A stretch of 64,000 nt of DNA, from NCBI RefSeq assembly GCF_000526995.1, contig NZ_AZUI01000001.1:930001-994000 (forward strand). Reading direction: 5' to 3'. Source of the DNA: Lacrimispora indolis DSM 755. GTDB lineage: Bacteria > Bacillota > Clostridia > Lachnospirales > Lachnospiraceae. Position 1 is the stretch's first letter, and every line of letters begins with the position of its first letter. Under the pieces are notes generated by a model. The model was not told the origin of the DNA. It saw nothing but the letters and a program-made list of their open reading frames with translations, and searched no databases. Shown here piece by piece: positions 28,890 through 32,116 of this stretch. The position numbers were made by a program, and so were the translations under genes.

Positions 28890-30134
28890 TTACGTAATAT
28901 TTCTGCTGAACAGATCCGTTTCCTCCAACAGGCTTTCAATGCTGTCCAAATTCAGGCGGTGCAGCAGCTCGATTACATATGGATTTTCCGCCGGATGATT
29001 ATAGGTAGCCATTTCTCCATAATCATTGACCAGCTCTGTCCCTTGCTCAACTCCTAAAATGGATCTTGGCCCGCCCACGCAGCCGCCCACACAGCCCATG
29101 CCTTCGTAAAAGTTTGCCTCGATCTTCCCGTCCATAATATCCTGGATCATTTTCCTGCACGCAGGCACTCCATCGGCCTGTTTGGTGCGGATTTCAGTTT
29201 TTTTGTTAGGGTTAATGGCTCTTACCGTATTCTCCACCGCTTCACTGACTCCGCCCTTTCTGGCATAAATCCTTCCGGCCTTTGAGGAGTGATCCTTTTC
29301 ACTCTCTTCCATGACTGCCGGATCAATTCCCAGGGCGTCAAATATATTCTTTACCTCCTGAAAGGTGAGTACAAAATCAACCGCACCGGCCAGATCCTTT
29401 TCCCGTGCTTCCGCCTTTTTAGCAAGGCATGGCCCGATGAACACGGTCAAGGCATCCGGATGCAGCGCCTTTACCACTCTGGCACAGGCAACCATGGGAG
29501 AAACAGAACCAGGGACATGAGGAATCAGCTGGTGATAGACCTTACGAATCATGCCGATCCACATGGGACAGCAGCAGCTTGTCAGCTGATAATCGTCTAC
29601 ATCGTTAATATTTTTATCAAACTCAAGGGCTTCTTTTAATGTAAGGATGTCTGCAAACAGGGCGACCTCCAGCATGCCGTCAAACCCCACGGCTTTTAAA
29701 GCCGTCCTCAGCTTTCCGGGAGTGACATCCTTTGAAAACTGTCCTAAAAATGCGGGAGCTATCATTGCATATACCAGCCCCTTGGAGCTTTTGATTGCCT
29801 TTAAAGCCGGAATAATATCCGTGCTGGCCGTCAGCTTTTCCGGCGCGCAGCCTTCAATGCACTTTTCGCAGCCCAGGCATAACTCCGGATCAACGGTGAT
29901 CCCATCCTTTTCGATCCCCAGGGCTCCGAAAGGACATCGCTTTAAACATTCCTCCCGGTCCTCTTTAGAACAGGTACAGGTTCCGGTGCGGATTACCACC
30001 GGATGCTTTTGGGGATTTAAAAGACAGTCCAGATGATGAGGATCATATGAGATTTCCAGGTCCTTCTCGGGATCCGAATTATTATCTAATACGGATTTCA
30101 CCATACTTTCATACAACTGCTTAAATGTCTGCAT
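28890..30134 (-). CDS. [FeFe]-hydrogenase-like iron-sulfur protein
   Basis: 414 residues from MQTFKQLYES (ATG 30134, GGAGG 6 bases upstream). N-terminal ferredoxin-like cysteines (CTCSKEDREECLKRCP and CLGCEKCIEGCAP) should bind two 4Fe-4S clusters. The H-cluster fold follows: L1 TSCCCPMWIG, L2 GPCLAKKAE and L3 YEGMGCVGGCVGGP. All four H-cluster Cys positions appear to have a Cys. L1 has an extra Cys and L2 has Gly before Pro instead of Met. It fits the stand-alone, possibly sensory or non-classical, group C/D-like proteins rather than a bidirectional catalytic hydrogenase. Confidence 0.8.
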   Translation of the reverse strand: MQTFKQLYESMVKSVLDNNSDPEKDLEISYDPHHLDCLLNPQKHPVVIRTGTCTCSKEDREECLKRCPFGALGIEKDGITVDPELCLGCEKCIEGCAPEKLTASTDIIPALKAIKSSKGLVYAMIAPAFLGQFSKDVTPGKLRTALKAVGFDGMLEVALFADILTLKEALEFDKNINDVDDYQLTSCCCPMWIGMIRKVYHQLIPHVPGSVSPMVACARVVKALHPDALTVFIGPCLAKKAEAREKDLAGAVDFVLTFQEVKNIFDALGIDPAVMEESEKDHSSKAGRIYARKGGVSEAVENTVRAINPNKKTEIRTKQADGVPACRKMIQDIMDGKIEANFYEGMGCVGGCVGGPRSILGVEQGTELVNDYGEMATYNHPAENPYVIELLHRLNLDSIESLLEETDLFSRNIT

Positions 30135-30317
30135 AAGATACCTCCCGCATGTATGTTTTATTTTTCTTTGTGGTGCTGCGATACTCATGGAATCAGACGA
30201 TTCTATTACAGCTATTATAATACTTTTTCTCCATCCTTACCACACCATTCATGGAATAAATGATAATTTTTACCCAATAATGGTTGGGGCAATAGATGAT
30301 CATTCCTTACTCATCTT

Positions 30318-30450: not shown

Positions 30451-31776
30451 TTATGGCGTCAGCCTGTTGATATCTCTGGGGAACAGGGTGGAAAACCTTA
30501 CGTTTTCCTGTTCCAGCAGTCTGCTTGTAAAACGCTCCAGGCCCAATCCCAGCCCTCCATGAGGCGGCATCCCATATTTGTGCATCATGAGATAAGTTCC
30601 AAACAGCTCCACATTCATTCCTCTGGATTTCATTTTCTCGGTCTGTTCTTTATATTTATGGATCCTTTGGCCGCCTGTGGTTATTTCCAGCCCCCGGAAC
30701 AAAAGGTCAAAGCTTAACGTTTCCTCTTTGTTCTCCTGGCTGTCCATGGCATAAAAAGGCCTCTTTTGGCTTGGGTAATGGGTCACAAACACAAACTCAC
30801 TTCCTGTTTTCCGTTTTATCAGCTCATAAAGCAGTTTTTCCTCTTCCGGTTCAAAATCATCAAAATCCTTTACGGGTCTGTTATATTCCTTTGAAATCAG
30901 TTCTTTTGCTTCTTTGAATTTAATTGCCAGGATCTCTTTAATTACCGGAATAACCGCCTTTAACAGCCTTATTTCATTGACATATTCTTTATTCAAATAT
31001 TCCATTACAAACTTGAGCATCATGGTTTCCATCTGCATAATATCTTCAAAGCTGCGTATAAATCCCATTTCAAAATCCACGCTGATATATTCATTTAAAT
31101 GCCTGGAAGTATCATGCTTTTCCGCCCGGAATACCGGAGCAATCTCAAACACCCTTTCATAAACGCCTGCCATCATCTGCTTATAGAACTGAGGGCTTTG
31201 TGCTAAATAAGCTTCCCTGCCAAAATAATCAAGACAAAAGATATTTGCACCCCCTTCAGCTCCTGCGTAAACGATCTTGGGAGTATGGATCTCCGTAAAC
31301 CTTTCCTGTTTTAAAAACTCACGTATTCCATAGGTGATTCCTTCCTGCAATTTAAAAACAGCCCGTTCTTTTTCGTTTCTCAGGGTGATTGGCCTGAAAT
31401 TAAGCAAAGTTTCCATGGAGGCATCGACATATTTATTATTGATTACAACAGGGCCTGGTTCTTCCGGCCCTGATAAAACCTCCGCCTCTAGCATCTGCAG
31501 GTCATAACCTGTCTTTGATCTCTCTTCCGCCTTGACATGGGCAGTTATGATTACACTGCTTTCTTCTTTTAATTCTCCAAGTGGAAATTTTGATATTTCC
31601 TCTGAGTAAAGGCACTGGACTACGTTTCTTTTTGTTCTTAATAACACAAAAGCGAAATCGCTCATTTTTCTGATTTTATATATGCTGCCGTGTATACGGA
31701 CATTTTCACCGATATGGCTTACTAACTCCTCTGCTTCAACAGTTACCTTTTCTATGGCTCCAACAATACTTTTCAT
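30451..31776 (-). CDS. aspS: Archaeal-type aspartyl-tRNA(Asp/Asn) synthetase
   Basis: 441 residues, class II. An OB-fold anticodon domain is followed directly by the catalytic core without the large bacterial insertion. Motif 2 is FRAEKHDTSRHLNEY and motif 3 HGGLGLGLERF. This short archaeal type is usually non-discriminating, charging both tRNA(Asp) and tRNA(Asn) with Asp for later amidation by GatCAB. AGGAGG lies 8 bases before the ATG. Its long leader carries a short peptide and competing hairpins (see 31892-32116). Confidence 0.9.
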   Translation of the reverse strand: MKSIVGAIEKVTVEAEELVSHIGENVRIHGSIYKIRKMSDFAFVLLRTKRNVVQCLYSEEISKFPLGELKEESSVIITAHVKAEERSKTGYDLQMLEAEVLSGPEEPGPVVINNKYVDASMETLLNFRPITLRNEKERAVFKLQEGITYGIREFLKQERFTEIHTPKIVYAGAEGGANIFCLDYFGREAYLAQSPQFYKQMMAGVYERVFEIAPVFRAEKHDTSRHLNEYISVDFEMGFIRSFEDIMQMETMMLKFVMEYLNKEYVNEIRLLKAVIPVIKEILAIKFKEAKELISKEYNRPVKDFDDFEPEEEKLLYELIKRKTGSEFVFVTHYPSQKRPFYAMDSQENKEETLSFDLLFRGLEITTGGQRIHKYKEQTEKMKSRGMNVELFGTYLMMHKYGMPPHGGLGLGLERFTSRLLEQENVRFSTLFPRDINRLTP

Positions 31777-31836
31777 TATCTATTCCTCCTGGATTATAAT
31801 TATTTTGATTTTCCTTGCGATTCAATATATCCATGA

Positions 31837-31890
31837 GGACATTATCATTATGTCCCATACGATCACAACCTTTCTTTTTCCTCGTATGGG
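31837..31890 (-). promoter_or_regulatory. Two hairpins between attenuator and aspS
   Basis: Minus strand CCCATACGA...TCGTATGGG (31854-31890, 9-bp stem) begins one base after the attenuator T-run and is followed by GGACAT-AATGATA-ATGTCC (31837-31855). They may stabilise the mRNA made when the attenuator is read through. Confidence 0.45.
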
Positions 31891-31891
31891 T

Positions 31892-31935
31892 AAAAAAATA
31901 GAACCACACGAGTAAATTTAATCTACCAATGTGGT
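31892..31935 (-). terminator. Attenuator terminator in the aspS leader
   Basis: Minus strand ACCACA (31930-31935) pairs with TGTGGT (31903-31908); GTAGATT/AAATTTAC extends the stem inside; T-rich run with seven T at 31892-31898. The 5' arm can instead pair with GTGTGG at 31951-31956, so terminator and antiterminator exclude one another. It lies 116 bases before aspS, which it would shut off. Confidence 0.7.
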
Positions 31936-31950
31936 CCGTAAAATATCCAT

Positions 31951-32008
31951 CCACACAGGCACAACGCGTTAAGCGCTCGCACCTATGATTCATCACAGAT
32001 ACAAGCGC
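31951..32008 (-). promoter_or_regulatory. Competing helices of the aspS attenuator
   Basis: P1: GCGCTTG (32002-32008), starting at the last base of the leader-peptide stop codon, pairs with CGAGCGC (31973-31979); inner stem CTGTGA/TCATAG. Alternative: CATAGGTGC (31979-31987) pairs over nine positions, with three G-U pairs, with GTGCCTGTG (31954-31962). The latter blocks the antiterminator strand 31951-31956. P1 and the alternative helix share bases and are mutually exclusive. Folded by hand. Confidence 0.55.
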
Positions 32009-32058
32009 TACCGATCGTCGTCCCTATTCAGCTTTTTTAGTTGTTGAAATTGATTCAT
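32008..32058 (-). CDS. Leader peptide of the aspS attenuator (Asp-rich)
   Basis: A 16-codon frame, MNQFQQLKKLNRDDDR, from ATG 32058 to TAG 32008-32010, with GGAGG 8 bases before the start. Three successive Asp codons (GAC GAC GAT, 32014-32022) lie just before the end and two Asn codons precede them. These are the amino acids attached to the tRNAs served by the downstream non-discriminating AspRS. A ribosome waiting at the first Asp codon would cover RNA to about the stop codon, leaving P1 free to form. Confidence 0.7.
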   Translation of the reverse strand: MNQFQQLKKLNRDDDR

Positions 32059-32087
32059 TATGGCTGCCTCCACCTGTAATTTGATTC

Positions 32088-32116
32088 AGGTTATCACAAA
32101 GAACTTATTTTGTCAA
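32088..32116 (-). promoter_or_regulatory. Promoter of the aspS leader
   Basis: Minus strand TTGACA (32111-32116), 17-base spacer, TAACCT (32088-32093) with an extended TGn element. The predicted start is about 20 bases before the leader-peptide ATG. Confidence 0.55.

Follow-up and report, generated by a model that had tools for sequence, protein, structure and literature searches.

A predicted Asp-codon leader-peptide attenuator of aspS2 in Lacrimispora indolis and relatives of its scaffold before other genes of Bacillota

Until the bacillar His case, leader-peptide attenuation was, according to a 2010 paper, known only from Proteobacteria and Actinobacteria (PMC2965389). Leader open reading frames (ORFs) with His codons, together with a terminator and an antiterminator, have been described upstream of hisS*/hisZ in bacilli and, at his operons, in the Bacillus cereus group, in Peptostreptococcaceae with Lutispora and in Erysipelotrichales (PMC2965389; PMC9413887). 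For aspS, an unspecified synthetase leader is mentioned in Shewanella (PMC2659441) and a T-box is described on one of the three aspS genes of Clostridium acetobutylicum (PMC2494555). Here we analyze the leader of aspS2, an aspartyl-tRNA synthetase gene, in a 64,000-nucleotide (nt) stretch of the genome of Lacrimispora indolis DSM 755 (the window; all coordinates are positions in it and all leader elements lie on the minus strand). T-boxes of clostridial aspS2-gatCAB have reportedly been the subject of earlier work. We are confident that the window leader attenuates aspS2 transcription by a ribosome-mediated mechanism and senses charged tRNA-Asp via three Asp codons, and it very probably switches the gene on when charged tRNA-Asp runs short.

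The aspS2 gene (30451-31776, minus strand) encodes a 441 aa protein that scores above the curated cut-offs of NF003483 (549 bits, cut-off 353) and TIGR00458 (374.6 bits, cut-off 368.4) and is a predicted aspartate--tRNA(Asn) ligase of the non-discriminating aspartyl-tRNA synthetase (AspRS) family. From 32116 to 31776 the minus strand carries a promoter-like site, an upstream ORF (uORF1), the helix P1, segment 3, a terminator with its T-run, a second upstream ORF (uORF2) and then aspS2. As a first-pass annotation of this DNA had proposed, uORF1 (32008-32058) is a 16-codon frame with a good ribosome site that ends N-R-D-D-D-R. Its ATG lies at 32058, the Shine-Dalgarno sequence (SD) GGTGGAGG at 32074-32064, and the frame reads MNQFQQLKKLNRDDDR followed by a stop codon. 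The sensor codons AAT AGG GAC GAC GAT (N-R-D-D-D; segment 0, 32014-32028) precede P1, a 17 bp hairpin (32009-31972) made of segment 1 (5′ arm, 31992-32009) and segment 2 (3′ arm, 31972-31989), which begins inside the TAG stop of uORF1, where its start had already been placed. Segment 3 (CGTTGTGCCTGTGTGG, 31951-31966) is the common partner of three strands: 32027-32016 of the sensor codons in helix P0, 31987-31977 of segment 2 in the anti-antiterminator P2 (paired with 31964-31954) and segment 4 (31934-31926) in the antiterminator (paired with 31959-31951, 8 of 9 pairs). P2 corresponds to the antiterminator-blocking helix previously drawn between 31979-31987 and 31954-31962, and the earlier antiterminator, 31951-31956 with 31929-31934, makes up six of the 8 pairs. 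The intrinsic terminator hairpin (31901-31937), in which segment 4 faces segment 5 (31912-31904), contains the formerly noted pairing of 31930-31935 with 31903-31908 and is followed by a T-run (31891-31900). The leader folds at -69.8 kcal/mol (z -6.6), and 0/200 shuffles folded as low.

In the mechanism that we propose, three states would compete for one strand, segment 3. Without a ribosome the sensor codons would pair with segment 3 in P0, with P1 stacked inside, and termination would be favored: with its codons able to base-pair to the antiterminator strand, a leader that is not translated is expected to tend to terminate. The trp leader is alike in this respect: its codon region pairs with the antiterminator strand, so that an untranslated leader terminates. 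A ribosome stalled at an Asp codon would block P0 and, thanks to the 4 nt between the last Asp codon and P1, still let P1 form; segment 3 would then be free to form the antiterminator with the terminator 5′ arm, and aspS2 would be transcribed. A ribosome at the stop codon would cover the P1 5′ arm, leaving the P1 3′ arm to take segment 3 (P2) and the terminator to form. The Asp-stall and stop-codon states had been put forward in the first-pass annotation, and that model holds in outline: the frame is conserved along with its codons, the spacing, the stems and the terminator, and folding agrees. It calls for correction in that the codons themselves can pair with the antiterminator strand, and P0, the second ORF with its hairpin past the terminator and the pairings of segments 5:6 and 6:7 described below all go beyond it.

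The comparison covered the best 80 of 582 aspS2 relatives in named genomes (mostly Lachnospiraceae by title, 84-53% identity, all of them near relatives); 25 genomes of the window's genus, its own included, were also fetched. Frames and codons were counted in 76 unique leaders chosen by a three-Asp motif. All 76 have an upstream start codon in the Asp frame, with a ribosome site of at least 4/5 in 67, versus start codons in 10 and 11 and ribosome sites in 2 and 3 leaders for the other two frames. The start with the best ribosome site mostly lies 10-11 codons ahead of RDDD (range 5-19). DDD is present in 76/76 leaders, which were however selected by that motif; AGG GAC GAC GAT (AGGGACGACGAT) is found in 66 and GAC GAC GAT in 71, with GAC GAT GAT in 4 and GAT GAT GAT in 1. 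Two loci found by RNA models carry imperfect runs, R-D-N-D (L066) and R-D-E-D (L160). In all 76 leaders exactly 4 nt separate the last Asp codon from the start of P1 and, given the size of the ribosome footprint, a ribosome holding Asp1 in its A site would leave P1 intact. The uORF1 stop codons lie 0-27 nt past the Asp codons (at 0, 3 or 12 nt in 68/76), and a terminating ribosome would therefore cover part or all of the P1 5′ arm. We conclude that uORF1 is a conserved, putatively translated leader ORF with tandem Asp codons. The nucleotide conservation of the sensor codons exceeds coding needs, as would be expected of a ribosome-independent RNA switch, either a riboswitch or an AspRS binding site, in which P0, P1 and segment 3 form a ligand fold and the ORF is incidental. 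We regard such a switch as improbable, since it is the Asp frame that retains a start codon and SD, the peptide varies among relatives in its N-terminal part, before NRDDD, P0 pairing already accounts for part of the nucleotide conservation, and elsewhere the same scaffold carries other codons ahead of genes with other functions.

The helices expected of a ribosome-mediated attenuator were assessed in alignment A1, which holds 68 of the 70 leaders with a recognized segment 3 pattern (L025 and L061 were dropped) among the 76 unique leaders. P1 is paired in 95.0% of cells, with double changes at 7 pairs, and P2 in 97.7%, with 46 double-change cells compared to 18 in shuffles. P0 joins AYAGG-G-ACGACG of the sensor codons to CGUUGU-R-CCURU of segment 3 and is paired in 95.3% of cells over 11 pairs (88.4% when a twelfth pair, present in 8/68 rows only, is counted); it shows 26 double-change cells versus 10.7 in shuffles and a pair-type count equal to that of shuffles. 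Covariation scores exceed 500/500 shuffles for P0 and P1 jointly, for P2 and for P0 alone, and slid controls are 18-62% paired, below all three helices. The duplex of codons and segment 3 beats 95% of letter shuffles in 58/70 aspS2 leaders and in 18/24 other loci of the same scaffold (L129, L145, L160, L194, L195 and L199 fail). A terminator hairpin with a T-run is present in 70/70 leaders, and segment 4 pairs with segment 3 at 8/9 positions or better in 60/70, compared to 17% for shuffled segment 3. At the level of sequence comparison, this establishes the ORF, its codons and spacing, P0, P1, P2 and the terminator.

To represent the states of the attenuator, the RNA of 67 leaders (L013, L042 and L077 were skipped) was folded as it stands before the terminator 3′ arm is made, with the leading edge of the ribosome imposed and at equilibrium, without kinetics. 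The median antiterminator probability rises from 0.43 with no ribosome to 0.92 when Asp1 occupies the A site and is 0.81 at Asp2, 0.43 at Asp3 and 0.05 at the stop codon; the corresponding values for the window leader are 0.36, 0.98, 0.98, 0.98 and 0.30. Asp1 exceeds stop in 61/67 leaders and the ribosome-free state in 57/67. When the edge is moved along the leader, the probability stays on a plateau between 9 nt upstream and 4 nt downstream of the last Asp codon, falls to a trough 12-25 nt past it and rises again at 30. In these computations the position of the stall would decide between the folds, in line with the first-pass model, and the ribosome-free state, the weakest step in silico, stays undecided at its median of 0.43. 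We further infer translation of uORF1, termination in vivo and a response to Asp-tRNA.

Several results weigh against this picture. L049, L052, L055, L056, L063 and L045 do not match the segment 3 pattern and were excluded from the pair counts. All but one of the 26 P0 double-change cells (25/26) come from a single pair, that of the Asn/His codon's wobble base (UA 35, CG 25, UG 6 of 68), and the P0 duplex misses the 95%-of-shuffles mark in 12/70 aspS2 leaders. Two of the five P2 measures, the numbers of doubly changed pairs and of pair types, are matched by 56 and 51 of 500 shuffles. A segment 4 match of at least 7/9 proved uninformative (67/70 leaders versus 67% of shuffles), hence the use of 8/9. 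In the folding, 29/67 leaders still favor the antiterminator (>0.5) without a ribosome, 16/67 do not exceed 0.5 when stalled, 12/67 exceed it at stop, and L025, L026, L041, L046, L048, L053, L058, L060 and L073 are near zero in every state, partly because segment 4 may have been misassigned in them by the automatic choice. The idea that P0 alone fixes the Asp codons was rejected: L049, L052, L055, L056 and L063 keep AGGGACGACGAT despite a different segment 3, and something besides P0 pairing may therefore constrain the codons.

The attenuator-type leader is widespread among near relatives of aspS2. Covariance models were used with the codons (R1), without them (R2) and for all types (R3). The three-Asp motif lies within 700 nt upstream of 72/80 aspS2 loci and R1 added four more: L054 (HRDDD), L066, and L023 and L076, where the contig end cuts in before the codons. 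The leader is present at 76/80 loci, 73 of which show three Asp codons; two loci have a T-box (L079, and L080 just below the curated score with 89.6 bits of 93, E 2.9e-20) and two, L068 and L072, have too little upstream DNA for a leader call. Among these 80 nearest relatives the leader peptide is the rule as judged from sequence, and the Asp-codon conservation and stem covariation that the first-pass annotation had named as checks in related aspS leaders are both found. Its remark that clostridial aspS2/gat genes are usually under T-box control is half right: it applies to a paralogue, L082, and to the more distant L079 and L080, and does not describe most of the 80 nearest aspS2 loci.

The window's own genome encodes one further AspS2 (L082, 55% identical), one AsnRS and one bacterial-type AspRS. 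L082 has a T-box match of 62.9 bits (E 2.1e-13), under the gathering score of 93; no copy of the leader was found at this paralogue, and only the window leader scores clearly with the RNA models. Near the expected T-box specifier, CTC-AAC-AGG is seen by eye in L082 (upstream of 1501) and CTC-GAC-AGG in L106. The specificity of the aspS2 paralogue's T-box may thus differ between species, with Asn sensed in one and Asp in the other; the T-box match was computed for L082 and read by eye for L106. In the window leader, none of 4227 Rfam models reached its gathering score and nothing relevant appeared at E≤10. At gathering score, the sole matches in 60 loci (nearly all aspS2) and 20 scaffold loci were the T-box of L079, a TPP riboswitch at L028 and a tRNA at L023. 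That the window leader is itself a T-box or another tRNA-binding leader is suggested by the T-box control of the paralogue and of two distant aspS2 loci, L079 and L080. We give this next to no weight: the window leader gives no hit to the T-box model (RF00230), be it at gathering score or with E≤10, and among relatives this model was tested at gathering score only, which can miss T-boxes and missed that of L082.

The scaffold of the attenuator is also found before genes other than aspS2. Searches of many genomes used strict filters and their counts are therefore lower bounds. R1 matched at least 29 of 396 Lachnospiraceae genomes at E≤0.001, own included. At E≤1e-5 it found 25 sense-strand places besides the window, 21 of them ahead of aspS2, two ahead of bacterial-type aspS (L129, NRDDDR; L134, HRDDD), one before an MTA/SAH nucleosidase gene (L137, leader end N-G-N-N-N) and one before a DUF4180 gene (L145, K-E-A-A-D-R). 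R2, run at E≤1e-5 on 392 genomes of the order, gave nine sense-strand places besides the window, 9/9 being leaders: five ahead of aspS2 (L157-L161, four already found by the genus fetch or R1) and four with His runs, at hisS (L162, HHHHK; L163, HHHHT; L164, HHRHK) and hisG (L165, HHHHH). Of twelve sense-strand places in 392 genomes of the class at the same threshold, ten have a locus and nine of these are leaders. They comprise LNNGYN before bacterial-type aspS (L186-L188; the AspRS proteins of L186 and L187 are cut at the locus end and fall a few bits under the cut-off, and L188 was assigned by eye), HHHR at hisS (L189, L191) and hisZ (L190), HHH at a hisZ-like gene tested as a fragment (L195), HHHR before a 68 aa ORF without a Pfam family (L193) and RDDDK before aspS2 (L194). 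Weaker R2 matches at hisS (L199) and hisZ (L200, L204) are also His leaders. R3 matched at least 36 of 386 Lachnospiraceae genomes, own included; across 388 genomes of the phylum it gave eleven places at E≤0.001, not counting the window. Eight of these are chance, and three have a leader with a codon clamp: L224 (YYFSYFR) before aroE, L219 (FFNNHFR) before a sodium symporter gene and L214 (FYSFSYFR) before a gene for an ABC binding protein that is TrpX-like but under the TrpX cut-off.

Some of these loci deserve separate description. At L137 (1501-1580) there are Asn-Asn-Asn codons and P0 is kept by compensating changes, before a nucleosidase gene without an obvious asparagine link. The leaders of L186-L188 have Asn and Tyr codons and no Asp codon, ahead of bacterial-type aspS. 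L214 and L224 lie in one genome (G1314) of a remote family of the phylum, giving two Tyr/Phe leaders on the same scaffold. Matches judged as chance after reading are L166, L167, L170, L172, L176, L192, L196, L198, L203, L205, L207, L208, L215-L218, L220-L223, L152, L248-L250, L146 and L147. The match at L148/L246 is presumably a T-box before a trpE-like gene.

In alignment A4, 35 hand-picked sequences of the Asp, Asn and His types that are mostly model-found and whose pair counts consequently lean towards structure, P1 and P2 are paired in 93.2% and 95.0% of cells and covary. Minimum-energy folds of His loci switch from antiterminator when stalled to P2 at stop in L164, L190, L193, L199 and L200; P2 is folded in every state in L162, L189 and L204. 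P0 with the codons is seen in L200 while the terminator is still incomplete, and otherwise appears mostly in the full-length fold only; for several His loci the terminator finder cut too early. The primary sequence common to scaffold loci, AGCGCTTGTA, GGTGCAAGCGCT and TTGTACCTATG, favors common descent of the scaffolds over convergence. The sensor codons follow the downstream gene in the amino acid they specify, being His at hisS/hisZ/hisG, Asn at aspS and Tyr/Phe at aroE, with L137, L145 and L193 as exceptions. The notion of NAY codons as the only sensors, decoded by queuosine-modified tRNAs (for Asp, Asn, His and Tyr), was rejected given the Phe codons of L214, L219 and L224. The codon swaps also bear on whether the aspS2 leader answers a general or drug-induced ribosome stall, like an arrest peptide such as ermBL, which is believed to stall at an Asp codon (PMC8274638), instead of sensing Asp-tRNA. 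R-D-D-D is strongly conserved and the geometry would work with any stall at that place. Still, Asp-tRNA is the product of the enzyme encoded by the regulated gene, the codons in scaffold relatives are replaced by ones that fit other amino acids and the peptide ahead of NRDDD is little conserved, which leaves a general stall a shade less probable even than the RNA switch.

Past the terminator, most of the Asp-codon leaders carry a second conserved element. The pattern GGNNGTGATNNNATG-NGRCAT-NNN-GAY-NAT-GYC...GAY is found there in 62/76 leaders, those scoring at least 29/42 against a template (next score 22), and their 53 distinct rows form alignment A2. In the window, uORF2 has its SD region at 31873-31861 and begins M-G-H-N-D-N-V-L-M-D (start and first ten codons, 31829-31858); a hairpin, GGACAT/ATGTCC, spans 31855-31837. 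Across the 62 leaders uORF2 has a strong ribosome site, starts with ATG in 52 and GTG in 10, and has Asp at codon 5 (GAT 30, GAC 32) and codon 10 (GAT 58, GAC 4) in 62/62 of these template-chosen leaders. The hairpin GRCAT/ATGYC is paired in 94.7% of cells over the 53 rows, with 20 double-change cells versus 5.3 in shuffles. The codon 5 wobble sits in the hairpin loop, and the pyrimidine found there in every row hence suggests coding. The pattern has one exact match in the own genome, this leader, and one with 3 mismatches and no ATG; it was not found in 12 His loci, 3 aromatic loci, L129 or L134. The element is present in L194, L160 has a variant by eye, and L186-L188 keep the hairpin with ATT in place of the start.

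The terminator 3′ arm (segment 5), segment 6 (CCATACGAG, 31881-31889) and the uORF2 start (segment 7) can pair alternately. In the window, segment 6 has two possible partners, segment 5 (9 bp) and, at the start codon of uORF2, segment 7 (31861-31855). By eye, the 5:6 and 6:7 alternatives occur in about two dozen of 56 leaders, among them the window and most Lacrimispora; over all 56, mean duplex energies are -8.7 for both 5:6 and 6:7, versus -5.8 and -5.3 in shuffles. Such switching would open the uORF2 start only once the antiterminator has formed. We guess, and hold the guess weakly, that a stalled or initiating ribosome at uORF2 governs how accessible, or how stable, the aspS2 message is. 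Two further ideas were discarded: coupling of uORF2 to the aspS2 start, as the uORF2 stop lies anywhere from about -235 to +41, and a universal segment 6, which was found in a subset of relatives only.

At the upstream end of the leader, the promoter proposed in the first-pass annotation is there as a sigma-70-type promoter-like site, TTGACA-17 nt-TAACCT (32116-32088), and is less secure than had been implied: its -10 agrees with the consensus at 3/6 places only, which makes it the weak point of the leader and explains why a promoter-finding scan of the window did not list it. A promoter-like pair of at least 10/12 precedes the ORF in 40/75 leaders versus 2% of shuffles, and one of at least 9/12 in 51/75 versus 16%. 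The gene after aspS2 (28890-30188) resembles a monomeric [FeFe] hydrogenase (TIGR04105, 295.6 bits, under the curated cut-off of 450).

Overall, we lean towards placing the aspS2 leader in an uncatalogued class of attenuators, homologous, modular and ribosome-sensing, that spans Clostridia and other Bacillota and is built around a codon-antiterminator helix in which the codons (Asp, Asn, His, Tyr/Phe) are exchanged to fit the gene; the Asp branch would add a second Asp-coding ORF and hairpin as a further layer of control, linked in some lineages by the 5:6 and 6:7 helices. Leader-peptide attenuation would be the usual control of one AspRS clade, beside a T-box paralogue in the same genome. A common scaffold with swapped codons makes it testable how attenuators change their amino-acid specificity. 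P0 suggests an answer (Asp versus Asn), because segment 3, rich in G and U, can pair with G or A at the first codon position.

Among described systems, the T-box (RF00230) is alike in controlling many aminoacyl-tRNA synthetases of Bacillota, the paralogous aspS2 here included, but senses tRNA directly without a ribosome. No report of an Asp-codon leader attenuator at aspS was found among the matches listed in a search of open-access titles and abstract openings, with subscription journals mostly outside. The hisS/hisZ/hisG scaffold loci are of the same kind as the His leader peptides of Bacillota (Naville and Gautheret, 2010; Ashniev et al., 2022); the main texts of PMC2965389 and PMC9413887 do not mention aspS, and no scaffold shared between amino acids was noticed there. 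uORFC-8-2, the cysS attenuator of Rhodobacterales (Brewer et al., 2021; PMC8632094), likewise has a tandem-codon leader ORF before an aminoacyl-tRNA synthetase gene, an intrinsic terminator and codons in a stem, but it uses Cys codons, belongs to alpha-proteobacteria and has another structure. The Shewanella leuA attenuator provides a precedent for P0, as one half of the antiterminator there pairs with leader-peptide coding sequence to make an anti-antiterminator stem; it differs in its Leu codons, its biosynthetic gene and its gamma-proteobacterial host (PMC2659441). The enterobacterial trp and his attenuators share with the aspS2 leader tandem codons of the regulated amino acid, alternative hairpins and an intrinsic terminator, whereas no Rfam leader family matches the leader described here. 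Compared with these systems, the aspS2 leader appears to combine a known kind of mechanism with a new sensor and an uncatalogued RNA.
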